Assembly (NCBI GenBank): GCA_039583875.1
Contig: CM077162.1
Span: forward strand, 171,511,220 to 171,575,219
Source: Platanthera guangdongensis
Lineage: Eukaryota > Streptophyta > Magnoliopsida > Asparagales > Orchidaceae
Direction: 5' to 3'
Length of the DNA: 64,000 bases
The notes below the pieces were generated by a model. The model ran no database searches. It saw only the letters and a program-made list of their open reading frames with translations, and had not been told where the DNA came from. Positions 8,085-59,985 of the stretch are shown here, one piece after another. The translations under genes were made by a program, and so were the position numbers. The first letter of the stretch is position 1; each line of letters opens with the position of its first letter.

Positions 8085-8510
8085 CATGTGTCGATACAAG
8101 TAGACTAAGTGTCGACACAATCCTTGGTGGTGTCGACACAGCTCTCATGGTGTCGACACTGCTTCTTGACATAGCTTCTGTAAGAATGTGTCGACACAAG
8201 TCCTATTTGTCGACACAGTCACTTCTTGTCTTGACACAATTAACTTAGAAGAAATTCTGGTGTGTGTGTCGACACAAGTCCTGTGTGTCAACACAGTTGA
8301 TGTCGACTGAACTTTCTATGTGTCAACACAAGTCCTGTGTGTCGACACAGTTGATGTCAACTGAGCTTTCTGTGTGTCGACACAAGTCCTGTATGTCGAC
8401 ACAATTGATGTTGACTGAGCTTTTTGTGTGTCGACACAGCTTTTCTAAGTGTCGATACAAGTCTTCACAAGTGTCGACACAGCTTCTTCTGGTGTCGACT
8501 CATGGACTTA
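8085..8510. repeat. GTGTCGACAC palindrome array in U3 of C
   Basis: The 10-bp perfect palindrome GTGTCGACAC and near copies recur at 20-40 bp intervals, upstream of the TATA box. Decayed forms (GTGTCAACAC, GTGTCGATAC) are mainly transitions. Confidence 0.88.
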
Positions 8511-8639
8511 GAAACTATTCTTGCATATTCTTAACCTGCACATATAAACTCAAAACAACATCAAATACACCTTGATGAATATCATTGAGCTATGTTAGGC
8601 TTCTCCAAATCTGGTACACATTTTCCAATGTACCCAACA

Positions 8640-8656
8640 ATCTCCCCCTATTGGGA
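8640..8656 (-). other. Polypurine tract of element C
   Basis: Minus strand: CCAATAGGGGGAGAT directly before the LTR start TGTTGGGTA. Confidence 0.88.
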
Positions 8657-8901
8657 GAAGTCATAACCCTTAGTCAATGATATACACCATTTATAATAAA
8701 CACATTATGATGTATATAAACATTACATGACAGGGTAATATATAAACAAAATATGTATAATATGTCATTACAGAATGATGCAAACACAGTGAGCATGAAT
8801 CATTGTTTTGTTTAAACTATCAAAAGTTTTTCAACAATCAGTTTACATAGATTTTTATAACAACTAAAGATTACATTGTTGTAAAATCTAGTTAATCTAT
8901 A

Positions 8902-11513
8902 CTAAGGCTGATCTGGCTCCTTGATGACTATGCCTTTTCCTGGTTTGACCTGAGCCTGCATAGTAGGTTCAGCATCATCAACAGGATTCTTCCCTTTCAG
9001 ATCTTTCCTTTTTTGTTCTTCAGCCCTTATCTTTTGCCTTTCAAAATAATGAAAAAGCTTTGAGAAGTACTTGATAGGCTCCAGAGCATTAGCAGGTAAT
9101 TTCCCAGCTTTTGCTTTCCTTCTATATTGAAGAGTGGCTTCCTTCCTGGCTTCATACTTGTTCCATTCTTGCTCAGTGTACCATTTACCCCTTTCAGGGG
9201 TCTTGTCCTTCACAGCTTTCCAGGCAGTCAATATAATGTTCCTGGAAGTTGGACTCCATTGCTCAAAATCAGGCTTCAACTCTACATGTTCTCTAAACCT
9301 TTTCTTTGAGAGCTAAGCTTCTTGCTCTTTATGCAAAGCTGCCTCTGACATTTCTACTTTCTCAATGATAACATTCTTAGTAGACTCTGGAGGGCTATAC
9401 ATCTGATCAACCAGGTGTTGAATTTCTTCAAAGTTAGAAGGGGGATATATGATTTGAGCTACTTCCTACTGACCCCCTTCAATGTCTGCAGCTTGAATTC
9501 CTGACTCAGATGTGTTGTCATCATCACATAGGGGTGGATATCCCAGAGTTGCTCTAACAACATTTGTTATCCATTTGGTATGCTCTGAGCTAGCATTGAC
9601 TATCAACCTCTCCCACTTTATGACTTCTCTTTCAATATGATCCCTGAGATCATTCTTTTGGAACCTAATTTGAGTACCCAGATAATTTGTTCCCTCTGTA
9701 TAATAGCCTTTAAACCTTTGAAGCTGAGCAGAGATAATCTTCTGAGAGGCTTGACGTGCAGATTGAAAATTGGCTAAATCCTCTTGAAGTTTCTTATCAA
9801 ACTCTGATTTGTCTTTAGCCCTTGCCTTAGTCAGTGCAGTTGCAGTATTCTTTAATTCTGTAACAATCACATTATGTGATTCAGTAAGATTATCATTCAT
9901 CCTCAGTTGATTTTCTAGGACATAGCCTTGCTTAACTACTAGATCAGCAACTTGAGTCTTTATTCCTTCTTATTGTTTTGCTAGAAAAACCACAACATTA
10001 CCTCCTTTGTGGAAGCAATCTGTCATCTCCTTTTTATTCTGATTTACCTCAAATATAATTGATTTTATATCTTGAGCCAAGAAAAATTGCAAATCTTTAT
10101 GACTCTTATCCATATACTTCTCCATGGCTATTCTTTGTTCATCTAATTTTACCTGTAAAGATACCAGTAAGGAGATATAATCATGTGCAGGAACTGGTTG
10201 TGGAGCAGTTTGCAATGCCCTTTTATAGCTTTGGCTTCTTCTTCTGAAAACCATCAGCTTTCTCTTCTTTGCTTAAGTTTCTGCTTCATCTTCAGAAGTT
10301 GAGGTACTTTCTATATTAACTCTTTCCTGAGGACTTGGAGGTAATTCCTTTTTAGTCATAGTTGGCTCTCCCTCAAGTCCAACTTGCTCCCCCTCAGTCC
10401 TGACTTGCTCCCCCTCAGTTCTGACTTGCTCCGCCTCAGTTCTTGCTTGATCTATATCAGGGAACAACTCTTCAAGGGTAAAATCTTGTTGAGTTTGGAC
10501 TGGAGGCACTCTTAACTCTGGAGCATCAGCAGCTGTAGATGTATCCTCCATGATAACATCATGTGCAAGATTGTTGAGTTGAGTGGTCTGGTCAACATCA
10601 ATCAAGGGCACAGTTAGTGTTTCATCCTTATTATTGAAAATTGTTTGATTAACTTCTTGGATTACCTCAAGAATAGTTTGAGTAGCCATTTCACTTTCTA
10701 AGTGTGTTGGCTCTTCCTCAAGATGAGGCTCCCCCTGCATCTGATCATCATGTCTAATATCTTGAGCAGGTGATTTCTCAGTATTATCTGGCCTCTCTTC
10801 ATCAACCATGTCTTTTATCAGCACTCTATCCCATCTAGAGATTATCCTTAGATCCATTCTCCTCATGTGATTGACCTTGGATCCAGCAGCCTGTTGCATC
10901 ACTTCTGGAATTGCTTCAACCAAGTATAAACTTAATATCCTTCCCAGATTAGGTTTCTTGATGCTTTCTCCAATCTTTTCATATATGACTGCAGACTAAT
11001 TGGTGTTGATTTTGTAGATGATCCTACTCATGAGGCAGAACATGTAGGCTGAGACCCTATCATGTCCACCTGGTTTGCATAAGATGACTTTGCCAACTAC
11101 TTCAGAAAGGAATTTTCCTTGAACATTCATTCCTTTTCTATTCATGGATGATCCAATTTTCATGGTGGAATCTAATCCACACCACTGCAGTGCTTCCCTG
11201 GTCTTGGAAGATATAACTTCTTCGTCTTCTTGAGTTTTTGGCGGATGAAGAGTTTTTCATATGCTTTTCATGGTGAGTTTGACTTTATTACCTTGGACTG
11301 AAGACCTAATTTTTAGTCCAGTTGAATCCTGAGTGGCAGCTTCATAGAACACAAGGATTTCCTTCTTTCATATCTAGGTTCTGATGTTAAATACTCCAAG
11401 CCATTTTCTGCAATTAGGGCTATCACAACTTTAATCGCTGGTTCAGCATCGTCAAAGGCATTCCGTACCAGTTCATATCCCTCGTTCACGTTTTCATCAA
11501 GTTTTGGCGCCAT
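8902..11513 (-). pseudogene. Post-RNase H extra ORF of element C (unknown function, broken)
   Basis: It starts at MAPKLDENVNEGYELVR and ends at ...VIKEPDQP. The N-terminal domain holds KFLSEVVGKVI, GGHDR, NLGRILSLYL and SRWDRV blocks matching the same blocks in the extra ORF of A/B/G. After it come an acidic, Glu/Gln-rich segment, a KKRK-type basic patch, a long helical and probably coiled-coil segment (KLDEQRIAMEKYMDK... FEVNQNKKEMTDCFHKGG), and a domain with WSPTSRNIILTAW and QYRRKAK. No hydrophobic signal or anchor is seen. Breaks: a frameshift near 11313, stops near 10998 and 10273, and further frame changes near 9970, 9466 and 9310. Homologue H is longer and less eroded. Function is unknown. 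Confidence 0.8.
10381..10443 (-). repeat. 21-bp x3 coding repeat in the C extra ORF
   Basis: Three 21-bp units encode repeats of the type EQVRTEG. Each unit contains GAGGGGGAGC or GAGGCGGAGC, close to the polypurine-tract core, so the repeat multiplies a PPT-like motif. Confidence 0.75.
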
Positions 11514-11551
11514 TGGGATGGTGAGAAATCTTGAATGGAGAAGAGAGAGTT

Positions 11552-11936
11552 TGTCGACACAGGAATCTAGTCTCAAAAATCTGGAGAGCGTTTCGACAGG
11601 GTTTGTTCTTGACCTATTTATATGTGTCTAAACATTGAAGGTCAAAAGGCGTGTCAAAATTTACTTAGTGTGTCGACACAGTTTACTAATGTCTCGACAA
11701 AAGTGTTGACTCCTATGTGTCGACACCAATTGATGATGTGTTGACACAGACATACTTATTAATTCAACAGAAATTCTGTGTCGACTCTATTTCTAAGTGT
11801 TGACACAACTTCTCTGAAGTGTCGACACAACTTCTCTGAAGTGTCGACACAACTCCTCTGAAGTGTCGACACCAATTTTCTAGATGTGTCGACACAACTT
11901 CTCTGTGTCGACATATACCTCTTTTTGTGTCGACAC
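11552..11936. repeat. GTGTCGACAC array upstream of the C extra ORF
   Basis: The LTR word of this family is repeated again in the spacer between RNase H and the extra ORF. Intact GTGTCGACAC copies lie for example at about 11819, 11840 and 11861, and the last, at 11927-11936, abuts the B insertion. The array brackets the TATA box at 11613-11622. Confidence 0.85.
11613..11622 (-). promoter_or_regulatory. Putative internal TATA box of the C extra ORF
   Basis: TATAAATAGG on the minus strand, 100 bp before the ATG at 11513. Element H has the same ten bases 99 bp before its ATG. With the word array just upstream it looks like an internal promoter. Confidence 0.55.
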
Positions 11937-11944: not shown

Positions 11945-12021
11945 TGAAAGTGCAGGTTAGATCAGAAATACTCTAGAGGGGGGGGGGGTGAATAGAGTAT
12001 TGTGCTCTCTACAAAAACTTT

Positions 12022-12039
12022 TTACAACTATTGTTGTAA
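12022..12039 (-). other. U5 hairpin of B
   Basis: Stem TTACAAC/GTTGTAA with a 4-base loop; the same hairpin is at 22629-22646 in the other LTR, with variants in G and D. Possible RNA 3'-end or reverse-transcription structure. Confidence 0.5.
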
Positions 12040-12954
12040 TCCTAAGTGAATGAGTTAGTAAATAAAATAATAAGCACAGCAACCTAGAAAATCACAGAGC
12101 ATGACAAAAACAAAAGAAAAAGGCCAACCAGACGACACAAGAAATTTATATTGGTTCCCCAACCTGGGTACATCCACTCTTCTACCACCCTGGTAGGAAT
12201 CCACTCAGGTTTTTGATCAGATGCCTGACACCAATGAGCTTTTGTTCAGGTGCTCAAAAACCAAAAACTCAAATCTTTTGGTAGGAGACTTGCAACCAGG
12301 AATAATTTTGAAGGGAATTAAAACCCTGTACAGAGGATGGAAAAAGGGTGATGAAGTCTTCTCTTTCTCAATAACAACTGAGAAGACTTGTGGAATTGAT
12401 GTTTAGCAGATTTGCTCCCCCTGAGATCTTGAATGGATCAGGAATACTGGAGCATTGCTTCAGGGTGATAGGTCTTCAAAGACTTGAGTGCTTGGACCAG
12501 AGATTGCTTCAGGAACTTCTTTGACAAATAGATTAATTGTTGTCCTTCTGAAGTTATCCTGTAGGATTGAAGGAAGAAGACTCTTGATAGTGATTGTATG
12601 TTCTTCTTCTTCGTGATGATGTTCTCTGGCCAAGGCTGATTGCAGAAAAGAACCTTTTTTTGTAAGATTGTTCGTGTATACAATGTCTGTCAGTGTCTGT
12701 ATTACTGCTTGATCATTTCTTTTCTGACTCTTGACTGAATGAAGAGCATTCAAAATTTGAAACCTTGAGCAGTAAATGCAATCGGCCTGGGAAGGAAGCG
12801 GCAATCAATGATTTCCCTAACCGTCCCATGAAAAAGTGGCATGTAATAATCCATAGTCAATGCGCGTTCTAACGGTAACATTCTGAGAAGATTGAGCATT
12901 GATTACTCCGGAATCATCGCCAAGAAAAGGGACGGGAAACTGGAGAAGACCTAG

Positions 12955-13500
12955 TCTGGAATCGTCGAACGAAGAACACCAATCGTCGAGCTGAGTTCAC
13001 AGTTCGTCGAGCTGAGCTTGAGTTTGTCGAGCTGAGCATGATAAGTTCGTCGACCAGACAATAGCAATTAGTCTTCCAGGGAAACTTGTCAATTCTTCTT
13101 TAACCTTCGTCGAACTGACAATATTCATTCATTGAACTGAGATCCAAATTCGTCGAGCTGAGAATGATTGTGGACTTAGAATCTGAGAAGTCTCTGACTG
13201 AGAAGGATTCAGATCGTAGACCTGAAATTGTCGAGTAGAGTACTGAATTCGTCGACCTGAGAAGTTGTGAACTTGAGGTCCAAGTTCGTCGAGCTCAGAT
13301 TCTTGTTCGTCGACCAAAGCCTAAAGTTGGACTTAGAAAAATCTGGAGTTATCCTGACTTTAGCTTGTTGAAGTAACTCAGTATTTGTTGAACAGAGAAC
13401 AAAGATTGTCAAGCTCAGTACAGAGAAGTGTCTCAAGATCGTCGAGCTCAGAACACCTTTCGTCGACCTGAGTTCGACAAACGTCAAACTCATTTTACTT
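12955..13500. repeat. TTCGTCGA array in U3 of B (3' LTR)
   Basis: Repeated TTCGTCGAGCTGAG-type words and their complements at irregular 15-40 bp spacing. TTTTTCTAAGTCC (minus strand) lies inside the array and is shared with other families. Confidence 0.85.
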
Positions 13501-13675
13501 AGTCTGGAAAACCTCTAATTCTTGAGTCTCTGATGGTCTTGTTGATAGCTGGTCTATCTGAAGTTGACTCTAAGGACTTACCCTAGACTCTAAGACACAG
13601 ACTTGACCCTGGCTATACATGTTGGGTCACATCCTAAGCTAGTGAACCTAGCCCAAATCAACTAGGGATCCAACA

Positions 13676-13866: not shown

Positions 13867-16678
13867 TTACTTCTTCTTCTTTTTCTGCATAGACTTGTCT
13901 TCTGTTGTCTTCTCTCCTGGATTTTTGAAGATAATTTCTCTATTTGGATCTAGAGCCTGTGCTGCGGTCATTATCATGTCAGCTGCCCCAATGATTTTCA
14001 GTGATGTAGCTCTGGGGACAACTACTTCAGGATGGAGCTTCATATAATCATCATCATTGAAAAGTTTGTTGCCTTTGTCAAATCTCTTTAATTCTTCCTT
14101 CCCGTACTTTGACATAGTTGTAAAACCTGAAATGTCTTTACCTTCAGCTTTGGCTTTATTAATCAATGACAGACCAATAAGCTCCTGGAATCTGGCCATT
14201 CTTGCAGTATTGTCTGTTTCAGGATCTTCAAAAGGAATAGGAGGAGAGTAAGGTCTTTCATGATTCTTATCTTTCTGTTCTTCAGATATATGTTGCTATT
14301 GCTGCTGATGTTGTTGATGCTGATTTCCTAAGGAATGATGGCCTTGCTATCTGCTTCTAGAGGATCTCCCTTGATGTCTCTGATAAGTTTGCATGGGGGT
14401 AGATCTCTGAGAGCTAGAGCCAATGGCACCAGCTGCTAGAGGAGGAGGAGGATCTTTTCTGTATCTGTGTACTGGTGGAGGAGGATATCTCATACTTCTT
14501 TTCCTTTAATTTTGCTGGTTCTTGGATAACCACATCCAAGCAGGCATTCCCTTATAAGGAGCAACATTGTGCAAAATATAGTAGAGAGTGTCAGCAGTTG
14601 GATTAGGCTTAGGAGCAGGAGGAGGAGCCTTCCTTTTCTTTGACAACATTTTCTTCTTTTTCTTTGAAGCTTCTTCATCTGAATCATCATCAGCATCATC
14701 ATCTTCACTGTGCTTTCAGTGTTTTAGCATCAATGACAGCCTTTTTAGAAGCAGGGGCAGAAGTTGAAGTTTCAACAATTGGAGTTTCAGCAATAATTTC
14801 AGAAGAAACTACACAAGAATCAGAGGTAATTGTGACAGAGCTTTCAGCTGCTGCCTTATTTTTCTCTTCAATATCTGCCAGGATTATCTCATCCAGATCA
14901 GGCATTGGGGAATCATCCATGACAAAAATTGGTGCTGAGACATCTTCTGGAGGTGATGGAATAACTGTAGAGGTTGGAGCAAAATCTGGAGGTGCAAAAC
15001 TGTCACAGAGTTGCTTAGCAACTGCTGGACTTATTGGAGATGTATAAGGAACAATAGCCAACTATGGCTTAATAAAGTCTTCTGGAAGAGACTGCATATA
15101 TACAGTATCAAAATTTCTCAACAAAACAGTCAAATAAACTATGGGATTTAAATGGAAATCACCAACAACTTTTATTTACTCTGGAACTGACTCATCTAAG
15201 TCAATGTTAGTATCCATGAATTGAAGCAATTCAATCAGCTCTGAATCAAATTCTGGCAAAATTTCTGCATCTGTATCTGCTGCTGCATCTGCTGTTGGAG
15301 GAACTGCTGCATCTGCATCTGCTGCTGCTTCATCACAGAGCATCTCCCCCTGCCTAGGTTCAGGAGACCCTGGAGCCAGGCCCCTGAATGAAGAGGGGGC
15401 AGCAGAGAGGAGAGAAACTTGGGCAGATAAGGAATTAATAGAATTCACAAGAGGTGTAATGGCCTCTGTGATTAGGGATTTGATGAGGGGAGTGAGCAGG
15501 GATATGATTGTAGATACAGTGGAGGGTTCAAAAGATGGAGAGGTAGATGGTGAAGGTAGAGAAGTAGATGAAGTAGGAATGGGAACAGATGGAGGGGAAA
15601 GAGGAGGAATGACATCTGTTATGGTGGTTTCTGGTGGAGGTGGAGAAGGGGATGGTATATGAAAATGTGGGATGCTGGACAGATGAGGTGGAATAGGTGA
15701 TGCTGGAGGAGTTGAGTTTGGATTCTCTGGGAGGGGGGTAGAGGGACTGTCAGGAATGTCAAGTGGTGGAGAGGGAGGAGGAGTAGGGACATGAGAGTGT
15801 TGTTGGGATTGGGGTGCTGGAGGAGATGGAAGATTGGTTGAAGGTGGAAGATGGGTTGCTGGAAGAGGTTGTGGAGATGGAATAACCTCTTCTGCAGGGT
15901 GGGGAGTGGTTTTTACAGCCCTGGTGCTCTCAGAAGCAGGAATGGAAGAGGAGGAAGCCTTGGATGGCTTGGTGATCGTCCTCTCCCATTTGCCAAACAA
16001 AGTGCATGTGAGGCGCTTGCTGGCATTGATGAAGATGGTCGGGGAGACCATAAATTCACCAGTCTTTTCTTGAAGGAAGATCCCCAATATTCTTCCAAAG
16101 CAGACTTCTTTCTTGCTGTTCTTCTTCTTTATTAACTCAAAGAAAATCTGGCCCCAAGCAACTTGTATCTTGTTGACCACGATGCACATGACAAGGAATT
16201 GGTGTCTAGTGATGTAGTCATGCGCAGAGTGCTTGCCCATCAGCACTTTTCCCACTATGTCCGCCAAGAACTGGTAGGCAGCAGAGAGTTGTTTCTTTAA
16301 CAACTTGTTAGGGTTACTTCCAGTAAACCCCATCAATTTCAGCATCGAGCTATACTCGTCAGAATCAACATCCACATCGTCTTCTCCATTTACCAATCTA
16401 AAGATTTCAGAAAGAACGGCAGGAGATAAAGAAACAGCATTGCTCCCGATATTTCCTGTCAAGACATTTTCCTCAGAAACAGACGAAGTGTATACCCATT
16501 CTCTAATTTCAGTTGCATGTAGTTTAATCCTTCTGGTCATAAAATATTTGAGACCAAGTTCTTCTAAAAGTTCTAGAATGTAGAGAAATATTGGGTCAGA
16601 GTGCTGGAAAGAATCAAAATCCATGTCGAAACCGATGTCGAATTTCATGGCAGCCAAGGTGCTCGCTGGAATTGCCAT
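13867..16678 (-). pseudogene. Post-RNase H extra ORF of element B (unknown function, broken)
   Basis: About 935 codons from MAIPASTLAAMKFDIGFD. The first 500 codons are intact (16678-15176), the longest clean stretch of this protein in the window. Residues 1-240 form a globular domain with KVLMGKHSAHDYITRHQF, a VCFGRILGIFLQ block and LFGKWER. Residues 250-400 are very rich in Pro and Ser. After a stop near 15176 and another near 15061 come an acidic part, a frameshift near 14706, a Lys-rich and DPPPP-rich linker, and the conserved C-terminal domain (14199-13867; ELIGLSLINKAKAEGKD, YMKLHPEVVVPRA) with a Lys tail. No signal peptide or membrane helix is visible. It is 'env-like' by position only. 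Confidence 0.85.
15342..15353 (-). other. Internal PPT-like purine tract (B)
   Basis: Minus strand GGGGGAGAT inside the extra ORF at the same codons as in A and G (35685-35697). Confidence 0.4.
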
Positions 16679-16685
16679 TGATGAC

Positions 16686-16706
16686 CTGCAAGAGAGACAG
16701 AGAAAA
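16686..16706 (-). promoter_or_regulatory. Putative 3' splice acceptor before the B extra ORF
   Basis: Minus strand CTGTCTCTCTTGCAG, then 7 bases to the ATG at 16678. The same pyrimidine tract plus TTGCAG is kept in A (16-33) and G (36983-37000). It would fit a spliced subgenomic mRNA, as reported for some plant env-class elements. No donor has been identified. Confidence 0.45.
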
Positions 16707-16757
16707 CGTCAATCAAGAGAAAGGGAACAGAAAGCGCGGGATGGAGGTTGAAGAAAA

Positions 16758-16768: not shown

Positions 16769-16814
16769 GGTTTTCAGAATATGAATCGATAATCTCTGTT
16801 CCACGAAAAAGAAA

Positions 16815-17060
16815 AATTCTTCGGACAGAGGTCGACGAAATATATTATACAGCGATAAATAATTAGTCGATCTCATCCAGAAGAAACGAAAATAGTTCGT
16901 CGAACTCCGCTCGACGAAGTATCTTCTGAAGCAAAGTTCGTTGATCTCCGGTCGACGAAAATTATTTCCACATAGAGAATTCGTCGATCTCCGTTCGACG
17001 AGCATCTCTCAAACTTTCCCTAATTCGTCGAACTCCGTTCGACGAACTCTGGAAAATTCA
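16815..17060. repeat. TTCGTCGA/TTCGACGAA array upstream of the B extra ORF
   Basis: Copies such as GTTCGTCGAACTCCG...TCGACGAAG and ATTCGTCGATCTCCGTTCGACGAG lie between the RNase H stop (17078) and the extra ORF. Paired TTCGTCGA...TCGACGAA halves form inverted repeats. This is the same word as in the B LTR. Confidence 0.85.
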
Positions 17061-17077
17061 TCGAATGCAGACAGAAA

Positions 17078-20297: not shown

Positions 20298-22387
20298 CTT
20301 GGGTCCTTTATTTTGTTGAAATGAAAAACTAGATATAACTGATAAAGCAGGTTGAGATTTATAACCTAAGGGGTGATATTTCCTAGGTGGAATAACCCAA
20401 TCAGCTACTGGATTGAATGGTTTATTAGTTGGCTTAGAATTTCTGTAAGAGAAATGATTTAAGTTTGGTCTTTCTAGGTTCGATGAATTCTTGTAAGTTC
20501 GTCGACCAGAGTTCGACAAATAGGGCTGAGATCGTCGATCTCTGCTCAGAGAATGACAGTAGTCATTTTCTGCGCCCCAAGTTCGTCGACCTCTGCTCAA
20601 CGAACCATACAAAGTTCATCGATCGCAGTTAGATGAATTGTTATAACTGAAGTTTGCGCTCAGAGTTCATCGATCTGGGTTCGACGAACTGACCACATTT
20701 TGTCGATCTGGTTCGACGAATGCTGCTGAACCTTGTTTTTATTAGCTGTTTTCTGATTTTTATTGCTCTTGTCTATGGGTTTTGGATTGTTTTCAGATAT
20801 TGGTTTGTTTATTATCTTTTCTTTACCTTTGGCAGAAAAAAATTTAATCGGTGTTGTAAGTATATTTTTCTTTATTATGGGAGGCAAACCTGATGATGCA
20901 CCCAAGCCCAGCTTGCCATTTAATCTGGCATTCACTGTGCTTGTTATGTCCATCAGCTTGAGACTTCTCCCATTGAGAGATTGCTCAAGTTGTTTGGCCG
21001 CACATAAGTCAGATTTTAATTTAATTATCTATTCATTTGCTAAGGTTAGTTGATCTTTTAGTTTCAGATTTTCTGAATTAACAGATTCCAGGTTTCCTAG
21101 TTTTTCTCTAAGGGTTTTTATTTCTTTTTCTGAATTAATCAAATCTAAACACATAGTTTTGAATTCAATTTTAAATAAATCAGAATTAAAATCAAAGCTT
21201 GAAAGAACCTGATCAGCCTTTGAGTCTGAGGCTGCCTCATCTTCAGATTCTCCTTCTGATCCAGAACAGCTCCTGGAGACATCAATTGCCATAAGGCAAA
21301 CCTCCTTGGATCTTGCTTCTTCCTCTTCTTCACTTGAGCTGGAAGAGGATGATTCTTCTTCAGTATCACTCCAAGTTTCAGCAACAAAGCCCTTGTCTTT
21401 CTTTTTGTACTTGCTGGAGGAGGGTCTGCTGATGTGTTTTCTCCTGGAGTCTTTTTCTCCTTCTTCTGATTTTCTGGACATTCTGAGATGTAATGTCCAG
21501 GCTTTCTGCATCCAAAGCACACAACCTCCTTAGTTGGTGTCTTGTCATACTTAGGCTTATCATCCTGCCTGGATGATTTTCTTCTAAAATCCTTTCTAGT
21601 CATCTTATAAAATCTTTTTGCAAAGAGGCTCATGAGTTCTTCATTGGATGTTGAGGTCTCACTTTCCTCTGTTGCTTTGAAGGCTATACTGTGATCCTTT
21701 CTTACTGGAGTTGATGACTTCTGTTCAGCTGCTTCTCTTTACTTAATCAACTGCACATAAGACTTTAATTTTCCTAGCAGAGATTCAGTTGATATCTCAT
21801 TTAGGCTTCTGGCTTCTTTGATAGGCCAGATTCTTGAATCCCAAGAGCTAGGGAAGCACATCAAAATCTTATCATTCACCTCTGTCAGGGTGATATCTTT
21901 ATCCAAGGTTTTAAGCTCATTGATGATTTAGCTCAACCTGTTGTACATTTCAGCCACTGATTTAGTCTCATCCTTCTTAAAATTCTCATACAGGGATATG
22001 AGATTTGATCTTCTGTCTTTCCTTTCATCTACTGAACCAACTACCATTTGGTTGAGGGAATCCCAAATGGCCTTGGCTGAGGTGCACTCAGCCACCTTCT
22101 GAAATATGTCATCTGACATATTTTGAGCCAAGATGTTCATTGCCTTTGCATCTGTAATTTTTTGCTTTCTTGTAGGCATCATTATTCTCTAGAGGAGGCA
22201 CTGCAGTCATGTTGGTAGAGGTGCTTGTAGAAGTTGCAGGTGCTGGAGGTACTCCTATCAAGATAAAAGCAAAAATATCCTCATCAATAGAATTTATATA
22301 TAATTTGATTCTTGCCTTCCAGATGGAAAATATGTTAAGATTGCATACTGGAGGTCTGATGCTTGCATAATCCTTATTTTGAGTCAT
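20274..22387 (-). pseudogene. gag: gag of element B (broken)
   Basis: Starts MTQNKDYASIRPPVCNLNIF. The UBN2-type gag domain is split by a frameshift near 22180 (AKAIWDSLNQMV..., YENFKKDETKSVAEMYNRL) and stops near 21928 and 21737. A CCHC zinc knuckle with all metal ligands (CFGCRKPGHYISEC) lies near 21500. A Ser/Glu-rich acidic stretch, a helical KTLREKLGNLESVNSENLKL segment and a C-terminal part (LGLGASSGLPP...) follow after frame changes. The last 300 bp contain the TTCGTCGA word (see 20460-20735), so part of the tail is a repeat in coding sequence. Stops near 21028 and 20660 also interrupt it. Confidence 0.88.
20460..20735. repeat. TTCGTCGA/TCGACGAA words inside the B gag tail
   Basis: AAGTTCGTCGACCAGAG, GATCGTCGATCTCTG, GTTCGTCGACCTCTG and similar lie within the gag reading frame, just before protease. 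G has its own version at 40770-40955. Confidence 0.8.
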
Positions 22388-22476: not shown

Positions 22477-22541
22477 CAATTAACCTCTTAAGGTGTGGTA
22501 GATTAATCAACCTGGTAAGGTGTGGAGTTTAACCAACCTGG
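22477..22541 (-). repeat. Leader repeat next to the B PBS
   Basis: About two and a half copies of a 26-27 bp unit, CAGGTTGRTTAAWCTMCACACC, start inside the PBS region and run into the leader. Possibly an RNA structure next to the primer site. Confidence 0.55.
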
Positions 22542-22552
22542 CTCTGATACCA
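22537..22552 (-). other. Primer-binding site of B (tRNA-iMet)
   Basis: Minus strand TGGTATCAGAGCCAGG, two bases after the LTR end; TGGTATCAGAGC is complementary to the 3' end of initiator tRNA-Met. Confidence 0.92.
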
Positions 22553-22554
22553 AT

Positions 22555-44251: not shown

Positions 44252-44259
44252 AATTTATA
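44252..44259 (-). promoter_or_regulatory. TATA box of the F 3' LTR
   Basis: TATAAATT on the minus strand, about 15 bp downstream of the GTCACGCCC array. Confidence 0.55.
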
Positions 44260-44269
44260 GAAAAAATTT

Positions 44270-44840: not shown

Positions 44841-45012
44841 TTGACAATTTTTGGCAGATTTTTCATATTTTCTGAAAAATAAAAATAAGCAAGTTAGTAT
44901 AATATTTACAAAAAAGGAGCAATTTATTAAGCAAAAATATATAAAAAAGATGAAAAGAAATGAAAACGACTAAATTAATGTACAGAAAAATAGGTATATT
45001 TACAATCCATCA

Positions 45013-45027
45013 AATACCCCCATACTT
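45013..45027 (-). other. Polypurine tract of F
   Basis: Minus strand AAGTATGGGGGTATT directly before the 3' LTR start TGATGGATT. Confidence 0.8.
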
Positions 45028-46608
45028 AAGCTTTTGCTATTACAGAGCAAAAGTTGGAGATGAACTTATAAGGAATAAAAGAAATCCTAAGTTTTAGCTA
45101 CCGCTTGAATTAATTAAAAGTAAGATCAAAATAAATATCCGGGGTTAAAGAATTAAATCCTAATTTATGAAATGTTATAAATAGTGGAAGAGTTTCAAAA
45201 AGACTTCTGGATAAAATAAAATAAAAAGCAAAAATTTATTTTTGTTAGTTTAACAAATATGGATTGGATTTATATAAAAAACCTTAGCTTAAAAGAAGTT
45301 AAAAGAAATAATGCAATTTAAAAATTATGCTCTCAAAAAAATTTTAAATTAAGTCTAGAATCATTGAAATAGGCTAAGTAGTTTGGTGGTTTATGAAGAA
45401 GGCTTGAATATTGAGGCGAGACAATTTTTTCTGGAACCTCCAATTTTTTTCTTTTTGGATAGTTAGGAAAATGAAATCTTATTTTCCTAACACATAAATT
45501 TTTTTCTTTCTTCATAATAAATAACTAACCCAATGTATATGTGTAGGAGTAATGAATTTTATCCTCTTACTCCATACATATAATCTTTTTTTTAAATATT
45601 GGGTGTCTATGTTTACGGAATGAAATCTTATTCCCATTGACATAAGATATTTTCAGGGATAGGGGTAAACATATCAAGTAAGACATGAAAAAAAGGAAGT
45701 GGGTTTAGTTTTTTCAAAAAGAAAACTAGATTTTAATAAAAAAGTTTTGAGAGCAACCTTTTTAAAAGGAACGTTCCAATGTTTCTAAAAGCAAAGAGTA
45801 GAAATAATTGAAATCCATGGATATTATTTTCTAACATAAAAAAACGAGCTTCTATTTATAAAATTAGAAGTGGTGGTGAAAAACAAGTTCTCTATTATAA
45901 GGAAAAGACATAAAATTTTTTTTAAATCTTAACCCCAGACACTTAAATCTATCAAACTTTAATTAATAAACGAATAGTAAGCAAAGAATAACTAAAATTC
46001 GCATATAAATTAACTCGAAACTAGATTTTTGGAAGCAAAAAGGGTTAAGATATGGTATATTCGAATTATTTTGTTACATAATTTAACAAAACATTTTTTT
46101 TGGAATTTTTAGAGTTTTTATCATTTTTTTGTGTTTTAATTATTATCTTTTTAGGATTTTTAGATTTTTATCTTTTTAGGATTTTTGGGGTTTTCAAATT
46201 TTTTTTTTTTATTTTTTTAGTTTTTGTAGATAAGTTATTGACAAGAAAGAGGAGAGAAAGAAGTGTTATTTAAGAAGATAGGGGGGAAAGAGAGATTTTT
46301 ACATATAAAAAAGGAGCAAAGTAAAAACTCGATTGCAGCCCCCGCGAACAGACTCTTATTTGAATGGTTGGTTCGATGAGTCGAACGTCGCGGACAGGCA
46401 GAATGCAAGCTTTTACAAATAAGAAAATGGGGGGGGGGAAAGAGAATTTTTTTTTTTGAAGTTACAAAAACTATTTACAAAGTAAAAAAAGTTTTTTTTG
46501 AAGTTTTATGATAATAAAAACAAGGAAATTTTTTTTATAGATTTTAAGTTTTGCAAATTTTTTTTTTAGTTTTGATGAGTACAGAATAAAAAATGCAGTA
46601 GAGGAAAA

Positions 46609-46626
46609 CACCCCCATACTTAAACC
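46609..46626 (-). other. Second PPT-like tract of F
   Basis: Minus strand GGTTTAAGTATGGGGGTG, preceded by CATTAGGGACAATGTT. This pair is typical of the region after the coding part of Tat/Athila elements. Confidence 0.65.
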
Positions 46627-47452
46627 CAACATTGTCCCTAATGTTGCAATCTAAGTATGCAGAACAGATAAGATACAAAATATAAAAAGTACAAAAATAA
46701 AAAGGGAGGCTAGGAGCTTCCCTTAGACGAGTCCGGGAAGGCGCAGGTTGAAACCCTGTATTAGTTAGAAGAAAAAGCAAAAAGATAACAGAAAAAACAA
46801 AAAAAAAGGATAAACTCGGCCTAAAGTGTGCGGGCGGTAGGGAGCATGTGCGTGGGTGACTCGGAAGGTAGCTAAGGCCTTAGCGACCATTGCGGGATAA
46901 AAATGTGATCCCCTAGCGCGCACAATAATGGAAGTGTGCCGAAGTAAAATGAAACGAAATAAAACAAATTAAAATAAAAGAAGTTAAATAAAATATATAT
47001 AGATCTATTAATATCACATTATATATTTTTTGGTGTTTTTAAGTAGGTTTTTTATTTTTTAGTTGATGATTTTTTTAGGTAGGTTTTTTAGTTTTTAGTT
47101 TTTTTTGTTTTTATAAAAATAATGAAAATATAAGGTTTTTATTTATTATTATGATTTTTTGTTAAGTTTTTCATTTTTTCAAAATTTTTAGTTTTGTTTG
47201 TTTTATAGTGTTTTTTTTTGTTTTTTGTTTTTTTCAAAAACAATAATGACAATAAAAATATTTTTGTTAAGTTTTTTTTTTTCATTTTTTGGATTTTTAG
47301 TTTTTTTTTTTGAGTTTAGTTTTTTTTTTAGTTTTATAGTTTTCTTTTCAAATTGTAAGTTTTTAAGGTTTTGCAAAATTTTTTTTTTAGTTTTATAAGT
47401 TTTTCAATTTTTTTTGTTTTTGTTTTATAATTTTATAATATTTTGTTTTATA

Positions 47453-47453
<1 letters not shown>

Positions 47454-47491
<38 letters not shown>
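47454..47491. repeat. (TTA)n microsatellite
   Basis: About twelve TTA/TAT units in the F internal region. Confidence 0.9.
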
Positions 47492-47492
<1 letters not shown>

Positions 47493-47581
47493 TTTTGTTG
47501 GCCATTTTTAATTTTTGTTATATATATAGATTTAGGTAAAATTAATAGATTTCCAGGGTTTAAAATAACGAAAACGACTTT

Positions 47582-47599
47582 TCCCCGGCAACGGCGCCA
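47582..47599 (-). other. Primer-binding site of F (tRNA-Asp)
   Basis: Minus strand TGGCGCCGTTGCCGGGGA is complementary to the 3' end of plant tRNA-Asp(GUC), six bases after the LTR end. Confidence 0.9.
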
Positions 47600-47634
47600 A
47601 AAACTTGGTGGTTAAAACTCCAAAATTATTTACG

Positions 47635-47650
47635 GTCACGCGGCGACCCG
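47635..47650 (-). other. Second site complementary to tRNA-Asp in U5 of F
   Basis: Plus strand GTCACGCGGCGACCCG versus tRNA-Asp GTCACGCGGGTGACCCG: 15 of 17 positions agree, with one gap and one mismatch. F RNA (minus strand) would therefore be complementary to the tRNA from the anticodon to the T arm, 36 nt before the PBS. Confidence 0.55.
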
Positions 47651-49821
47651 GTGGTTTTATTTGAGAAAAAGACGGATGTGATTTTTATTTAGAAAACGGG
47701 GCGCGCGTATTTATTTATTTGGATATAAAACGGTGTGATCGAGTTTTAACGAAAGGAGGCAAGTGCACCTATCGTGAGTAGTACAGGATATTCCGGGTGG
47801 AATATCGAGGTCGTATTGTTCTCGGGGCCGGTTCGATTATTTCTACTCTTCCCTGGAGGGGACTATTATTTTACCGATAATTATCTGTCGGGATATTTTA
47901 TATATAATAAAAAATGACAAAATAAAACTGAAAATGAAAGCAATAAAAAGAAAGCATGAAGGTGGTGCCGATGAAGAGCTTAGCTCGATGGCACCGAAAA
48001 AACAAATGAACTAAAATAGACTTAAATAAAAAGAGCTCCTAAATTTCTAATTAATTAAGGCGGAGACTTGGCCGTGGAGGTTCCACTAAAATGAGCTCAC
48101 CTATCTCTAGGACTATCGCTCACCTGAACGCTAAGACTATTCGACTGAACGTTAGTCCGACGAAGGATTCCTCTTAACGCCCGCATTACGCTAAGAACCC
48201 CGCTATTGGGTGGGGAACCCAATCCGGTAGAGTTGGTGCGCCTCCTCTCTCGAGGGTTAGTGCGGAACTCTCTTTGCCAAGGGGTTATCGGTCCATATGC
48301 ACGGCCTCTCGGCTAGCTAGCATATGGACTACGGAAATAGGGCCCACACATCGATATGTGGTCCTACGCGTCGTTAACCCCGGGCAAACCTTAAGTACTT
48401 TTAATTAATTAGAAAGATGAGACCTTTAATTATTTTAAGCTATTTTATTTGTCCCAATGCTCTTCGATGCCGAGGGCTAAGAACGATTAGCCACTCATCG
48501 GAATGAGGAAGGCTTGTGGTGAAAAGCAGAAAAGAAAGCAGAAAATGGAAAGCAGGAAATGAAAGCAGTAAAATGAAAGCAGTAAAGGAAAGCTGAAAAT
48601 TGCAAGTCCTACCCAAACGAGTAGGACTGAAGAAAGCTGTAAATTGCGAGTCCCGGCACAAATGCGTGGGCGGGAGAAATGAAAGCAGTAAAACGCACAC
48701 ACGCAAGTCCTACTCAAATGAGTAGGAGAAAATAAATGCGGGTCCTACTCAACCGAGTAGGACAAAATAAATGCAACGCACGCACACACTCGACATAAAG
48801 TAAAACTCACGCACACACTCTCTCGACATAAATGAACACACACACACAAATCCTACTCAAACGAGTAGGGAAATAAAGACCTGCCATTTAACTCGAATGA
48901 GTAGGCGGAAATAAAGAAAATTACAAACTCACGCACTCTACAGAAAGTAAAACACACGCACACACTCGACAGAATTAAAATAAAGCAAAACGCCATTTAA
49001 CTCTTAACGAGTAGGCGAAAATAGATGCACACAAGTACAGAAAAATGTAAAAAAACTAAGTTGTCTAAAAATGAAAACAACTGCATTTCTACCGCTAGAA
49101 TGCGGGAGAAATGCATAAAAAGATGAAATAAAATAAAAGGGGCAAAAGTTTAAACGAAAAATCAAAGTGCACGAAAATTAAAACGAATACATTTCTACCG
49201 CTAGAATGCGGTAGAAATGCATAAAAAGAGAACGAAAAAATTAAATAAGGAAAAAGTTTTTTGAAATAAAAACAAAAATGAAAATGCTTGAAAAATTAAA
49301 ACAATTATGTTTTCATTCTTATAATTTTATATCAACGCCTAAAAAGTGGAAATAAGACTAAAAGAGAACGAAAAGTTTTACAATCCTAAAGAGCCTAAGT
49401 TAAAAGAAAATTAAAAATCACCTTTTAAAACATTGTTTTATAAACTTATAGGAATGAAAACAAAGTAAAAATAATAAAGTAAACCTAAACAAGTATTTGC
49501 ATGAAAATAAAATTGCGATTATAACGGCTAGAAATTAGATAAAAGTTAAAAGATAAAAAGATTTTAGAAGACATAAAAAAAACAAAATAAGAACAAACAT
49601 TAAAAATCACTTCGAGTAGGGCGCATGAATGGATTCCAAGCTATGCAAAGAGAGAAAAAACTAACACATTTTATTATGAAAAAGTGATTACAAGAAAGCT
49701 AAAAACAAACACTAAGAGAGGGGAAGAAAATCCCTTACATAGCATGAGAAGGCAATTCGGCAGCACCTACCCTAAGAAAAGTGGTTCAAAAAGGGAACAT
49801 GAATCCTAAGCAGAAGCTCTG

Positions 49822-49829
49822 AATTTATA
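49822..49829 (-). promoter_or_regulatory. TATA box of the F 5' LTR
   Basis: TATAAATT on the minus strand, directly downstream of the word array. Confidence 0.6.
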
Positions 49830-49844
49830 GAAAAAATTTACACG

Positions 49845-50410
49845 GGTCACGCCCTTGGTCACGGGCGTGACATGGGCGTGTCAGTACTATTTGCGAAGGC
49901 GGCCGGCGATTTGACGGGAAAGTGGACTTCGGGCTGGACACGTGTCGGTCTCGCAGTGGTCACGCCCCTGGTCACGGGCGTGACTCTGGGCGTGTCAAGC
50001 AGGTGGATCTGGGCGCGGGTTGCGCCGAAAGTCTTCGGGCAGGTCTTGTCGGGCTAGCTGGAAAGGTCACGCCCCAGGTCACGGGCGTGACTCTGGGCGT
50101 GTCGGCTGGTGTCGACACAAGACGAATGTCGAGCGGAAAGTGTCGAGTTGAAAATCGTCGAGCGGAAATTGAGTCACGCCCCAGGTCACGGGCGTGACGC
50201 TGGGCGTGACTGTTGGTGTCGACACTCGACGATCGTCGAGAGGAATTCGTCGAGTGGAGTGAACACGGTCTTGGGTCACGCCCCGTGTCAGGTGACACGG
50301 GCGTGACGCCGGGCGTGTCAGGCTTTGCTCTTCAAAATTCGCAGATTTCAATGGAGTTTGTCGTGTCACGCCATGGTCACGGGCGTGACCAATTTGTCAC
50401 GGGCGTGACT
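49845..50410. repeat. GTCACGCCC/GGGCGTGAC word array in U3 of F (right LTR)
   Basis: Same as 44270-44840, again with GGTGTCGACAC and TCGTCGAG words in the middle (50105-50255). Confidence 0.88.
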
Positions 50411-50589
50411 TGACAATTTTTGGCAGATTTTTCATATTTTCTGAAAAATAAAAATAAAGCAAGTTAGTATAATATTTACAAAAAAGGAGCAATTTATTAA
50501 GCAAAAATATATAAAAAAGATGAAAAGAAATGAAAACGACTAAATTAATGTACAGAAAAATAGGTATATTTACAATCCATCAGTAGTTC

Positions 50590-50725
50590 TTCATGCTTAC
50601 TCGAGTAATTGATTTCTACCCACTCAAGTAGCCTATCTTTATATACCCGAGTATGTTCTCCTTCATGTACTCGAGTAGTTATTCAACTACTCGAGTAGCT
50701 ATTCACTTACTCGTGTAGTTGGCTG
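50590..50725. repeat. TACTCGAGTA array in U3 of E (right part)
   Basis: Three exact ACTCGAGTA cores and several variants continue the array interrupted by F. Confidence 0.88.
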
Positions 50726-50836
50726 AACCTTTTCTGAAATTTGTCTAAGTCCTTTTTCTGACGGGATTTTAAAATCACGCGACATGATTGGTCCACGTGT
50801 ACACCATTATGACTGATTATGACCGTTAGTCTCTCC

Positions 50837-50844
50837 TATATAAG
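50837..50844 (+). promoter_or_regulatory. TATA box of the E LTR
   Basis: TATATAAG about 115 bp after the last word of the array. Confidence 0.75.
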
Positions 50845-51399
50845 GTCTTATCAGAAAATGACAAACCCTAAGTATTCTCCAAGCTTTCTTGTCATTTTAT
50901 TTCGAGAAAAATTCTTTAGCCGACTCCTCCCTGTTTTCCCGAAACGGAAGCCGCCGCCGCCACCACATTCTTCCGGCCACTGCTTCTAAGGTCAGAGGAT
51001 TCATTCTGAAGAAAGTTACAGATCGAGATCGACATCACCGTTCATCTTCTCTCTCTGATTCTGTAAAAGCTAGAAGATCCAGATCTGGGTCAAGACTCTC
51101 TTCACCGATTTCTGATAGTGCTGCAAAGTCCATAAGAAGAAGTTTTCTGGCCATTTCATCAGATCTGTTTGGATTTACTGTTTGTATAATTTTCCAAAAT
51201 TTTATTAATCTTGTAGGAGAAAGTTTCTCCGAGTGTAGGAGTTTTTCACTCCGAGTTTGTAGGAAGTGTTATCTTCCGAGGTGTAGATCCCCTTGTTTGG
51301 ATCGAGTTTGTAGGAACTTTGTTCCGAGGGTAGGATCGATTTTTGATCCGAGATAGTGGAGTAGCCGAGTCTAGTTGATTGCTAGATCGGTGAGGGAAA

Positions 51400-51446
51400 G
51401 TGGATGTACCCAAGGTTGGGGAACCACTATAAATCTTGTGTCGTCT
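51400..51446 (+). promoter_or_regulatory. Conserved R/U5 block of E
   Basis: GTGGATGTACCCAAGG then GGGGAACCACTATAAATC; see the same block at 4375-4426. Confidence 0.55.
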
Positions 51447-51564
51447 GTGATATTGGTAGATAGTTCTGTACTGTGCTCTAATTATCTTTTATTCCGCAAA
51501 AGACGCACAACTCACCTATTCACCCCCTCTAGGTGATTTATGTTGACAACCGTTTTCTTTCTAT

Positions 51565-51580
51565 TGGTATCAGAGGGAGG
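51565..51580 (+). other. Primer-binding site of E (tRNA-iMet)
   Basis: TGGTATCAGAGGGAGG, the same as in C. Confidence 0.9.
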
Positions 51581-55644: not shown

Positions 55645-56144
55645 NNNNNNNNNNNNNNNNNNNNNNNNNNNNNNNNNNNNNNNNNNNNNNNNNNNNNNNN
55701 NNNNNNNNNNNNNNNNNNNNNNNNNNNNNNNNNNNNNNNNNNNNNNNNNNNNNNNNNNNNNNNNNNNNNNNNNNNNNNNNNNNNNNNNNNNNNNNNNNNN
55801 NNNNNNNNNNNNNNNNNNNNNNNNNNNNNNNNNNNNNNNNNNNNNNNNNNNNNNNNNNNNNNNNNNNNNNNNNNNNNNNNNNNNNNNNNNNNNNNNNNNN
55901 NNNNNNNNNNNNNNNNNNNNNNNNNNNNNNNNNNNNNNNNNNNNNNNNNNNNNNNNNNNNNNNNNNNNNNNNNNNNNNNNNNNNNNNNNNNNNNNNNNNN
56001 NNNNNNNNNNNNNNNNNNNNNNNNNNNNNNNNNNNNNNNNNNNNNNNNNNNNNNNNNNNNNNNNNNNNNNNNNNNNNNNNNNNNNNNNNNNNNNNNNNNN
56101 NNNNNNNNNNNNNNNNNNNNNNNNNNNNNNNNNNNNNNNNNNNN
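55645..56144. other. Assembly gap, exactly 500 N
   Basis: A run of exactly 500 N, the usual placeholder for an unknown size. The left side is E pol and the right side is unrelated DNA. Confidence 0.98.
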
Positions 56145-58246: not shown

Positions 58247-59128
58247 TGAAAGAACTAGTGCCTAAACACCTAGAGAGGGGGTGAATATGTGCACTTAATC
58301 TTTTTAACTTTTAAGACAGAAACACTGAATTATTAGACCTGTTTATGCAAATTTTTACAGCAATTCAGCACACAGCAATCACAGAATAAAACACACACAG
58401 AGTACACACAGCTTTTATAGTGGTTCCCCAAGGTCTGGGTACATCCACTTTCCCCCTTCGCCTATCTAGTAGTGTACTAGATTCGGCCTAACTTCTCCAC
58501 TACTCCTCAGATTCACAGATCTTACAGCTCAGAACCCAAACAGGTTCCTACAACTCAGAGTGATCCCACTCCTACAACTCAGGATCAATAGTCCTACCAC
58601 TCAGTCTTCACCAAGACCTACACTCAGCCTTCAACAAGGCCTACACTCAGCCTACAACAAGGCCTACACTCAGAGAAATGTATCTCCTACACTCAGGCAC
58701 ACAAGCCCTACCACTCAGCCTTTATAGATATAGACTTACAACTCAGATCCCTAAGAATCCTACAGAAAATAAAGAGTTCAAAGATTAATAACCACAACTC
58801 TGATTGAGAAAGATGAGTTGACTGGCTTCTTGATGAGTTCTTGAAAGAACTTTGCTGAGATCAACCTCCCTTGGCTTTCTTCAAAGCTTCTTGAATTAGA
58901 ACACAGTAGGGTTGAATCTCTTGTGTAGATGATCTTCAATCAACTGCTGACTTGAGAATCAGATCTCAATCTGAACTTCCTTATCAGCCTGGTTCAATAG
59001 CTGTCTTCTTAGAAGGAGCTTTCTCTCTCCAACTTCTTAGATCTTCACTTGAAGGTCTTCTTCTGTTGTGTTTTTTTCACTTCATTGATTGATTCATCAA
59101 TCTTTCACCTTCTGTTGAAGGAATAAGC

Positions 59129-59135
59129 CTTTATA
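59129..59135 (-). promoter_or_regulatory. TATA box of the H LTR
   Basis: TATAAAG on the minus strand, about 130 bp downstream of the word array. Confidence 0.65.
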
Positions 59136-59269
59136 CAGGCTTTCTTCATGGTAACCGGCTGATCCGGTTTCTAACAACTTTCTGACAGCTCTGACAGTAG
59201 CAGTTGACCGGTTGAAATGGCAGCTGTCAAGTCATCCAGTTACTTCTTGAAATCTCTGTCACTATCTGA

Positions 59270-59985
59270 AAGTGTCGAGACAGATAGTCTTTATGTGTCG
59301 GCACAAATAGACCAAGTGTCGACACAAGTAGACTATGTGTCGACACTAGCCTTCATGGTGTCGACACAACTCCTTGTGTTGTAGAAATAGCTTCTCGACA
59401 CTGCTTCTTCAGAATGTGTCGACACTGATCCTGTGTGTCGACACAAGTCTTTCTTCTTCAATACTTAGTTGAATTCTGCTAAGTGTCGACACAACTCCTT
59501 TGTGTCGACACATCATCTTGTGTTGAACCTTGCTAAGTGTCGACACATCTTCTTTGTGTCGACACATGCCTTCTGTGTTGAAACTTTTGCTGAGTGTCGA
59601 CACATCTCCTTTGTGTCGACACATTCTTCTTGTGTTGAGACTTTGCTGAGTGTCGACACAGGCTCCTAGTGTTGACATTTGTACTTGAACTTTGTTGAAG
59701 TTTGCTGAGTGTCGACACAGCCGCCTAGTGCCGACACTTTCGATGTCGACAAAGTTCCTCTGGGTGTCGACACTGCTTCTAAGTGTCGATACTGATACTT
59801 TAGATAAATCTTCATTGTGTGTCGACACAACCTGTATGTGTCGACACTTTGCTTCTGGTGTCGACTCTGCCTTCCTGGTGTCGACACAATTACTCAAAGT
59901 GTCGACACAGCTCCTCTAGGTGTCGACACAAGCCTTCTTAAGTGTCGACACTTTTCTTCTAGTTGTCGACACATGGACTTAGAAA
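59270..59985. repeat. GTGTCGACAC palindrome array in U3 of H
   Basis: The densest array in the window: GTGTCGACAC about every 20-30 bp, often in close pairs such as GTGTCGACAC-(8-12 bp)-GTGTCGACAC. Longer than in C, so the array has expanded or contracted between the two elements. Confidence 0.92.

Follow-up and report, generated by a model that had tools for sequence, protein, structure and literature searches.

The window analyzed here, a stretch of 64,000 nucleotides from the orchid Platanthera guangdongensis (GCA_039583875.1, contig CM077162.1, positions 171,511,220 to 171,575,219 of the forward strand), is a nest of plant long terminal repeat (LTR) retrotransposons in which Pfam identified Copia-type gag, integrase (INT) and reverse transcriptase (RT) domains. 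The LTRs of these elements, denoted A to H, carry arrays of short repeated words in their U3 regions. We consider it likely that the arrays are the repeated motif (RM) arrays of Sireviruses, the SIRE lineage of Ty1/copia elements, and that they are enhancers bound by host proteins, probably as dimers, which would drive the LTR promoter and an internal promoter of the ENV-like gene. The observations behind this reading are the Sirevirus motifs of the elements, the enrichment of the words, the length of the repeated unit, a word common to LTR and linker arrays, a TATA box in the linkers of C and H, the concentration of CpG in the words and their lower divergence compared to the spacers. Protein binding, enhancer activity and internal promoter use are what we infer from these features of the sequence.

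Sirevirus elements and their arrays

An earlier note on this DNA had assigned the arrays to unrelated LTR families, which is wrong for all but F, since Sirevirus motifs are common to the others. By their diagnostic motifs, A, B, C, D and H are Sireviruses, and E and the solo LTR G can be placed with them by fewer features. The polypurine tract (PPT) AGGGGGAG, followed by AT and the TG of the LTR, was exact at all five visible 3′ LTR junctions (A 2970, C 8638, B 13674, D 32077 and H 60115); the junction is not visible for E, and G is a solo LTR. The junction between the 5′ LTR and the primer-binding site (PBS), CA-ATTGG-TATCAGAGC (CAATTGGTATCAGAGC), was present at three of three visible sites, exactly in B (22541) and with 14 of 16 bases in C (28847) and E (51561). 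Near the 3′ end, eight LTRs (A, B3, C3, C5, D, G, H and E) fit the pattern of the poly-C integrase signal; B5 does not, although seven C stand at 22589–22595. These hallmarks are those given in the accessible text of Bousios et al. 2010 (PMC2829016). In that text, PPT octamers cluster near the 3′ LTR of Sireviruses, whereas the extra octamers found here (three in the C linker, four in the H linker and one each in A, B and D) all lie more than 0.5 kb from an LTR. The copia order gag-INT-RT could be shown for C, on the minus strand, with gag at 28083–28640, INT at 25830–27221 and RT at 24472–25611. Among the 120 matches listed, out of 6592, for the C integrase protein, the best identity, to a protein of the orchid Platanthera zijinensis, was 70%, with 54% of the query covered.

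The LTRs and arrays are listed below. Half-sites are TCGTCGA and TCGACGA, which differ at one base, and "ENV-like" was assigned by position, between RT and the 3′ LTR.

2980–4605, plus strand: A, Sirevirus 3′ LTR; half-site array 3182–3592, PPT AGGGGGAG 2970–2977, PPT-AT/TG exact, poly-C signal 4561
6949–8639, minus strand: C3, Sirevirus 3′ LTR; GTGTCGACAC array 8088–8501 with 17 copies at ≤2 mismatches, 9 exact; TATA 7922–7933
28861–30117, minus strand: C5, 5′ LTR of the C element, broken at 30118 within its own array; PBS junction 28847–28862 (14/16 bases)
11551–11936, minus strand: C-type linker array with 16 GTGTCGACAC copies at ≤2 mismatches, 7 exact; TATAAATAG at 11622; ENV-like ATG 11513
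11945–13675, minus strand: B3, Sirevirus 3′ LTR; half-site array 12961–13481; flank GTACT
22555–24281, minus strand: B5, 5′ LTR of B; exact PBS junction CAATTGGTATCAGAGC 22541–22556; half-site array 23567–24087
16800–17064, minus strand: B linker array of N7-spaced dyads upstream of the ENV-like open reading frame (ORF) 15176–16708 (ATG 16678); TTATATCTAGG at 16768
20480–20720, minus strand: B gag-region array, N7 dyads as in the B linker; stops in all three reading frames
30119–32078, minus strand: D, Sirevirus 3′ LTR; half-site array 31091–31884, including a GTGTCGACAC block at 31417–31589
32120–34046, minus strand: G, solo LTR nested in the linker of D; CTTGA at both flanks; mixed array 33180–33854
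37048–37363, minus strand: D linker array, N7 dyads at the start of the ENV-like ORF 35863–37233 (stop to stop); TTATATCTAGG at 37068
40779–40946, minus strand: D gag-region array within the open frame 40580–41152, encoding SSNGARRS-type repeats; gag by position
41133–42030, plus strand: E, left part of the 5′ LTR; TACTCGAGTA array from 41412 with 24 copies at ≤2 mismatches, 16 exact
50588–51561, plus strand: E, right part of the 5′ LTR, with 6 more word copies (3 exact); TATA 50836, poly-C 51518, PBS junction 51561–51576 (14/16)
42035–45012, minus strand: F3, LTR of a non-Sirevirus element; repeats with GTCACGCC, CTCGACGA and GTGTCGACAC at 44276–44840
47605–50582, minus strand: F5, the other F LTR; primer site TGGCGCCGTTGCCGGGGA 47582–47599; flanks ACTAC; repeats 49846–50409
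58247–60116, minus strand: H, Sirevirus 3′ LTR (low end placed by eye); GTGTCGACAC array 59272–59972 with 31 copies at ≤2 mismatches, 20 exact; TATA 59136
63300–63720, minus strand: H linker array (about 63300–63713) with 15 GTGTCGACAC copies at ≤2 mismatches, 10 exact; TATAAATAG 63337; ENV-like ATG 63229

LTR arrays are found in A–E, G and H. To these we add six arrays beyond those of the earlier note: four that adjoin ENV-like ORFs, in all four linkers in which the region upstream of ENV is visible (B, C, D and H), and two in the gag regions of B and D. Within an element, the LTR and linker arrays have a word in common, which is GTGTCGACAC in C and H and TCGACGAA in B; in D, TCGACGAA occurs in both arrays and GTGTCGACAC in the LTR only. 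Downstream of the LTR arrays, a TATA-like box was found in all four families in which the array had been described as lying directly upstream of one, at distances of 154 bp in C3, 135 bp in H, 118 bp in E and 15 bp in F3.

C and H have a second TATA-like sequence, TATAAATAG, next to the linker array, followed after 109 nt (C) and 108 nt (H) by an ENV-like ATG. In C it sits between the bulk of the array and the final word copy, and in H a few weak word copies lie on its far side. The pattern TATAAA(T/A)AG has seven matches in the window, both strands included. The ENV-like starts of C and H encode similar protein (MAPKLDENVNEGYELVR and MAPKLEENINEGYELVR), and at the matching place B and D have TTATATCTAGG. 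From its position, TATAAATAG is a candidate internal promoter of ENV. No ENV-like ORF had a Pfam match above the cutoff. Those of B and D are 66% identical to each other, and the four matches to the B ORF (15176–16708) were all in Platanthera zijinensis. We considered a single common ENV-like protein, but the tested piece of H (61614–62504) had no similarity to the ORF of B. A splice-acceptor-like sequence, CTTGCAGG, was seen before the ENV-like start of B (about 16664–16700, minus strand) and at the matching place in D (about 36980–37000, minus strand), and is a possible alternative route to ENV expression. The dyads of the D gag region lie within an open frame without a Pfam match; translated as the SSNGARRS-type repeats, these DNA words double as codons.

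The arrays are thus of a known kind, the Sirevirus RM, with a new set of words and some anatomy that we did not find reported. The earlier note knew of no description of such a word system, but the layout, together with a table of words, is already in Bousios et al. 2010. In the accessible text of that paper, 13 Sireviruses carry a high-copy palindromic RM in the 5′ half of the LTR, where it forms CpG islands ahead of the TATA box, and in the nine that carry ENV the RM occurs again upstream of that gene, with words that differ between elements. Much of this arrangement is seen again in the window: a CpG-rich array in the 5′ half of the LTR, followed by a TATA box in C3, E and H, an array upstream of the ENV-like gene and a word that varies by element. 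The published Vitis word, CGGTCGACCG, is likewise centred on GTCGAC, and that of Tnd-1 (ACAATCGATTGT) on ATCGAT. However, 12 of the 13 published words have a CGG-CCG core, Tnd-1 being the exception, whereas the words of the window lack it, as Tnd-1 does, and are centred on TCGA instead; CGG-N0-9-CCG occurred at most once per LTR piece (nine pieces) and never in the repeated word. The window further differs in the directional half-sites of the A, B, D and G LTRs, in the mixture of two words in D and G, in the gag-region arrays and in the TATA boxes beside the linker arrays of C and H. As far as the accessible text goes, the authors favoured an internal ENV promoter without conclusive identification, left the function of the RM open and called for reporter tests.

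The palindrome-rich cis-region of the maize Sireviruses Opie, Ji and Giepum (Bousios et al. 2016, as described in the accessible parts of PMC5311732 and PMC10760457) is similar in kind, but the maize word is CACCGGAC-N3-GTCCGGTG (PMC10760457). When the six words of the window were searched in the literature as whole words, no paper on retrotransposons, judged by title, was among the matches listed. The subfamilies of Tnt1, a classic copia element, also differ in repeated U3 boxes, as the families of the window do. RMs are described as absent from classic elements in the accessible text of PMC2829016. Searches of a collection with few subscription journals returned no report of a linker TATA box before an ENV-like start, of an array in gag, or of Sirevirus words in a non-Sirevirus element.

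Enrichment, geometry and divergence of the words

That the words are real, enriched and mostly confined to arrays was borne out by the counts in the window. Exact matches numbered 61 for GTGTCGACAC, 19 for TACTCGAGTA, 48 for TTCGTCGA, 18 for TCGACGAA, 9 for GTCACGCCC and 15 for GGGCGTGAC. With strands pooled, the counts far exceeded those expected from a dinucleotide model (TGTCGACA, 75 vs. 0.52; ACTCGAGT, 22 vs. 0.60; TCGACGAA, 66 vs. 0.62; GGCGTGAC, 26 vs. 0.33). The earlier note had proposed a comparison with dinucleotide shuffles, and here the top 8-mer of each region was above the maximum of 300 shuffles in all 15 regions (11 LTRs or LTR pieces and four linker pieces), from 42 vs. 6 in the H LTR to 7 vs. 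5 in A and 6 vs. 4 in B5, the weakest cases. Chance or base composition as the source of the words is refuted by this result for the window, and has a negligible probability. With two mismatches allowed, 106 of 121 copies of GTGTCGACAC and 30 of 48 copies of TACTCGAGTA fall in clusters of at least three, and gaps of 19–22 bp make up 61 of 96 and 19 of 28 gaps, respectively.

The picture of a single self-complementary word in each family needs to be qualified in two ways. Firstly, more than one word is used in D, G and F: D and G have 10 and 9 copies of GTGTCGACAC at ≤2 mismatches (2 and 4 exact) within an array of TCGACGAA, and F mixes GTCACGCC, CTCGACGA and GTGTCGACAC in its U3 repeats. Secondly, GTGTCGACAC in C and H and TACTCGAGTA in E are gapless palindromes, but in the LTRs of A, B, D and G 79 of 92 half-sites are co-oriented, and no palindromic 8-mer occurs more than once in the A, B5 and B3 LTRs. 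In these LTRs, half-sites in direct orientation 19–22 bp apart were found 44 times, compared to a null maximum of 20. In the linker and gag arrays, the half-sites are instead paired into 21-bp dyads, TCGTCGA-N7-TCGACGA, of which there are 14 (null maximum of 6 in 3000 placements).

Divergence was compared by picking words in one LTR and scoring them in another, among A, B3, B5, D and G, leaving out the B3–B5 pair. The words diverged less than the spacers in all 18 ordered comparisons, 17 of them with p < 0.05. For example, none of 70 word positions vs. 136 of 426 spacer positions differed from B5 to G; the weakest comparison was that from D to B5, with 10 of 77 vs. 112 of 517 (p = 0.096). Words that contain CpG are expected to mutate faster, not slower. 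The 7-mers shared between the spacers of LTR and linker arrays were within the range of shuffles (C 9, H 6 and B 5; means 2.3, 2.5 and 3.4; maxima 11, 12 and 10).

The arrays also stand out by their CpG content. The observed/expected (o/e) ratio of CpG was 0.72–1.24 in Sirevirus arrays; outside them it came to 0.00–0.30 in the parts tested of four LTRs (C3, H, D and B3) and to 0.01 in the RT-INT region of C. In eight of nine Sirevirus LTR rows the words hold 53–92% of the CpGs; in the C 3′ LTR they hold 14 of 20 on 11% of the bases. The gag-pol region of C (24284–28846) has only 5 CpG in 4563 bp, although its LTRs are about 96% identical (C5 vs. C3, 95.9%). Because of this identity, the depletion probably predates the insertion. 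As for changes after insertion, CpGs of B were altered in 6 of 25 cases in words and 13 of 26 outside (p = 0.08); for B and C pooled the counts were 6 of 30 and 16 of 33 (p = 0.03), and F, which was not pooled, had 2 of 26 and 18 of 140. Protection of the word CpGs after insertion is at most suggested by these numbers.

Enhancers, hairpins or expanded repeats

The mechanism that we envisage is as follows. Each unit of about 20–21 bp would bind a sequence-specific DNA-binding protein of the host, probably as a dimer, either on a gapless palindrome (GTGTCGACAC or TACTCGAGTA), on the spaced dyad TCGTCGA-N7-TCGACGA, or on half-sites separated by about two turns of the helix. Genomic RNA would be made from the LTR promoter, activated by the U3 array, and the ENV-like gene would be expressed from an internal promoter, activated by the matching array in the linker. 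Between families the words turn over while the layout is kept, as if the elements were tracking different host factors. CBF/DREB-type factors, with their GTCGAC sites, are not claimed here as the binding family. The proposal that the arrays are enhancers for dimeric host factors, with a changing word in a constant layout, comes from the earlier note; of the readings considered it has the best fit to the anatomy, because of the position in U3, the TATA box that follows the array (in C, E and H), the recurrence of the word in a further array ahead of the ENV-like gene, the units of about 21 bp and the slower change of the words, and we retain it as an interpretation.

Several observations weigh against this reading. 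In A, B3, D and G, no match to the TATA-like pattern was found in the roughly 510 bp that follow the LTR array. Since C and H are related, their linker TATA boxes amount to about one independent case, and the ENV-like frames of both run into early stops. Gaps of more than 25 bp are out of phase with a 10.5-bp repeat (p = 0.11 and 0.20), leaving helical phasing unsupported, and fit a period of 21 bp only weakly (p = 0.012 and 0.040, with eight periods tried). N7 dyads occur five times in the LTRs, one per LTR, no more often than in the highest of the null placements (5), and half-sites 19–22 bp apart are not in excess in the linker and gag arrays (3, null mean 3.3). The half-site and divergence counts are not independent, because the LTRs compared are homologous; the divergence comparisons overlap, and the aligning itself may favour words. 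The right part of E is an exception to the CpG pattern, with 5 of 35 CpGs in words and an o/e of 0.84 outside the array, and F lacks a contrast between array and surroundings (1.22 vs. 1.21). Finally, most of the arrays that were folded as RNA were more stable than their shuffled counterparts (60 shuffles each), with z-scores of −4.6 for C3, −4.8 for H, −8.6 for E, −3.1 for a block of G, −4.6 for F and −4.3 for the B linker, compared to −0.6 to −2.2 for four U5 controls.

Such folding would be expected if the transcribed palindromes form hairpins and template small RNAs, so that the arrays matter mainly to silencing. A small-RNA role of the maize Sirevirus LTR palindromes is stated in the accessible parts of PMC5311732 and PMC10760457, and small-RNA data exist for them (Bousios et al. 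2016, cited therein). Self-complementary words, however, fold trivially, and PMC10760457, in its accessible part, treats structure and small-RNA targeting as the price of the cis-regulatory role of Copia palindromes. The best discriminator is B: its B3 LTR array is no more stable when folded than shuffled sequence (z = −0.2), because its half-sites point one way, and yet the words are the slowest-changing part of this family; a single array of the A/B/D/G type was folded whole. We therefore regard silencing as an unlikely main function of the arrays, while noting that the enhancer and small-RNA views are compatible with each other.

Still less probable is that the arrays are degenerate minisatellites that expanded passively, through slippage and unequal exchange, and have no function. 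The near-constant unit size of 19–22 bp would be consistent with such an origin, as would the units of F, which are plain tandem repeats of about 107–114 bp. Passive expansion does not account for the lower divergence of words than spacers, seen in every one of the 18 comparisons between LTRs of A, B, D and G, nor for LTR and linker arrays of one element that share the word but not clearly the spacers. The unit consensus, with its conserved words and loose spacers, is circular as an argument here, because the copies were chosen by word.

Element F, nested insertions and the use of the window

F looks like a non-Sirevirus, Ty3/gypsy-like element. It lies on the minus strand, flanked by ACTAC, and its primer site TGGCGCCGTTGCCGGGGA (PBS TGGCGCCGTTGCCGG) is exact at 47582–47599. 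This site is of the tRNA-Asp type, typical of Ty3/gypsy Tat/Athila-like elements. A stretch similar to the F PBS is present in Athena, a non-autonomous element of Arachis for which the superfamily is left blank in the source table. The internal region of F (45013–47604) has no ORF of at least 180 aa in the ORF list. The words of F are embedded in its long tandem repeats, a layout unlike that of the other families. The F3 LTR has two copies of GTGTCGACAC and five of CTCGACGA; of 4000 shuffles, a fraction of 0.0015 contained at least one GTGTCGACAC when the whole LTR was shuffled and 0.007 when the array was shuffled by itself, and none contained five CTCGACGA. These Sirevirus words represent one or two events, because the F units are tandem copies, and they were picked post hoc. 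It is conceivable, if doubtful, that unrelated LTR elements are held to one set of promoter words by a DNA-binding factor of the host, with Sireviruses carrying matched arrays at the LTR promoter, at an internal ENV promoter and in gag, and F having acquired the words independently.

Insertion boundaries are visible for five nested elements, of which B, F and G alone have both flanks in view. Three of the five are within word arrays or border on them: that of B at the C linker array (11945), that of the D element in the C5 array (30118) and that of F in the E array (42033). The boundaries of G and E are outside word arrays, and arrays make up an estimated 11% or so of C. In the accessible text of PMC6911290, insertions have a slight preference for palindromes, which reaches significance in two of four families, Sire and Athila, and LTRs are said not to be commonly targeted. 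Five boundaries, noticed post hoc, do not prove that arrays are targets. Between 30119 and 34046, the LTRs of D and G lie head to tail; solo G was inserted just upstream of the PPT of D and imitates a tandem LTR.

Further features of the window include a minisatellite at 7260–7474 in the C 3′ LTR, downstream of the TATA box, with overlapping copies about 70 bp apart and 79% alike. A variable sequence resembling GTGGATGTACCCA...GGGAACCACTATAAAT recurs, by eye, in the 3′ part of the LTRs of C (about 7115–7165), B (12140–12185), D (30320–30360), G (32335–32375), A (4375–4410) and E (51400–51435). The coding region of E contains 500 N at 55645–56144, probably an assembly gap, and ORFs spanning it are probably artefacts. 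No tRNA and no Rfam family reaching the gathering score were found in the window, and a plasmid collection had no match to the integrase stretch or the array of C. Scans of IMG/VR for paired words and the PPT junction gave 2, 4 and 14 stretches; as tblastn with three window proteins found nothing in any of these 20 loci, they were dismissed as chance hits.

For the arrays themselves, the window offers natural contrasts by which the hypotheses can be told apart: palindromic and non-palindromic arrays in sister families, and different words in one layout. The unit of array, TATA box and start is compact and of a size suited to reporters.

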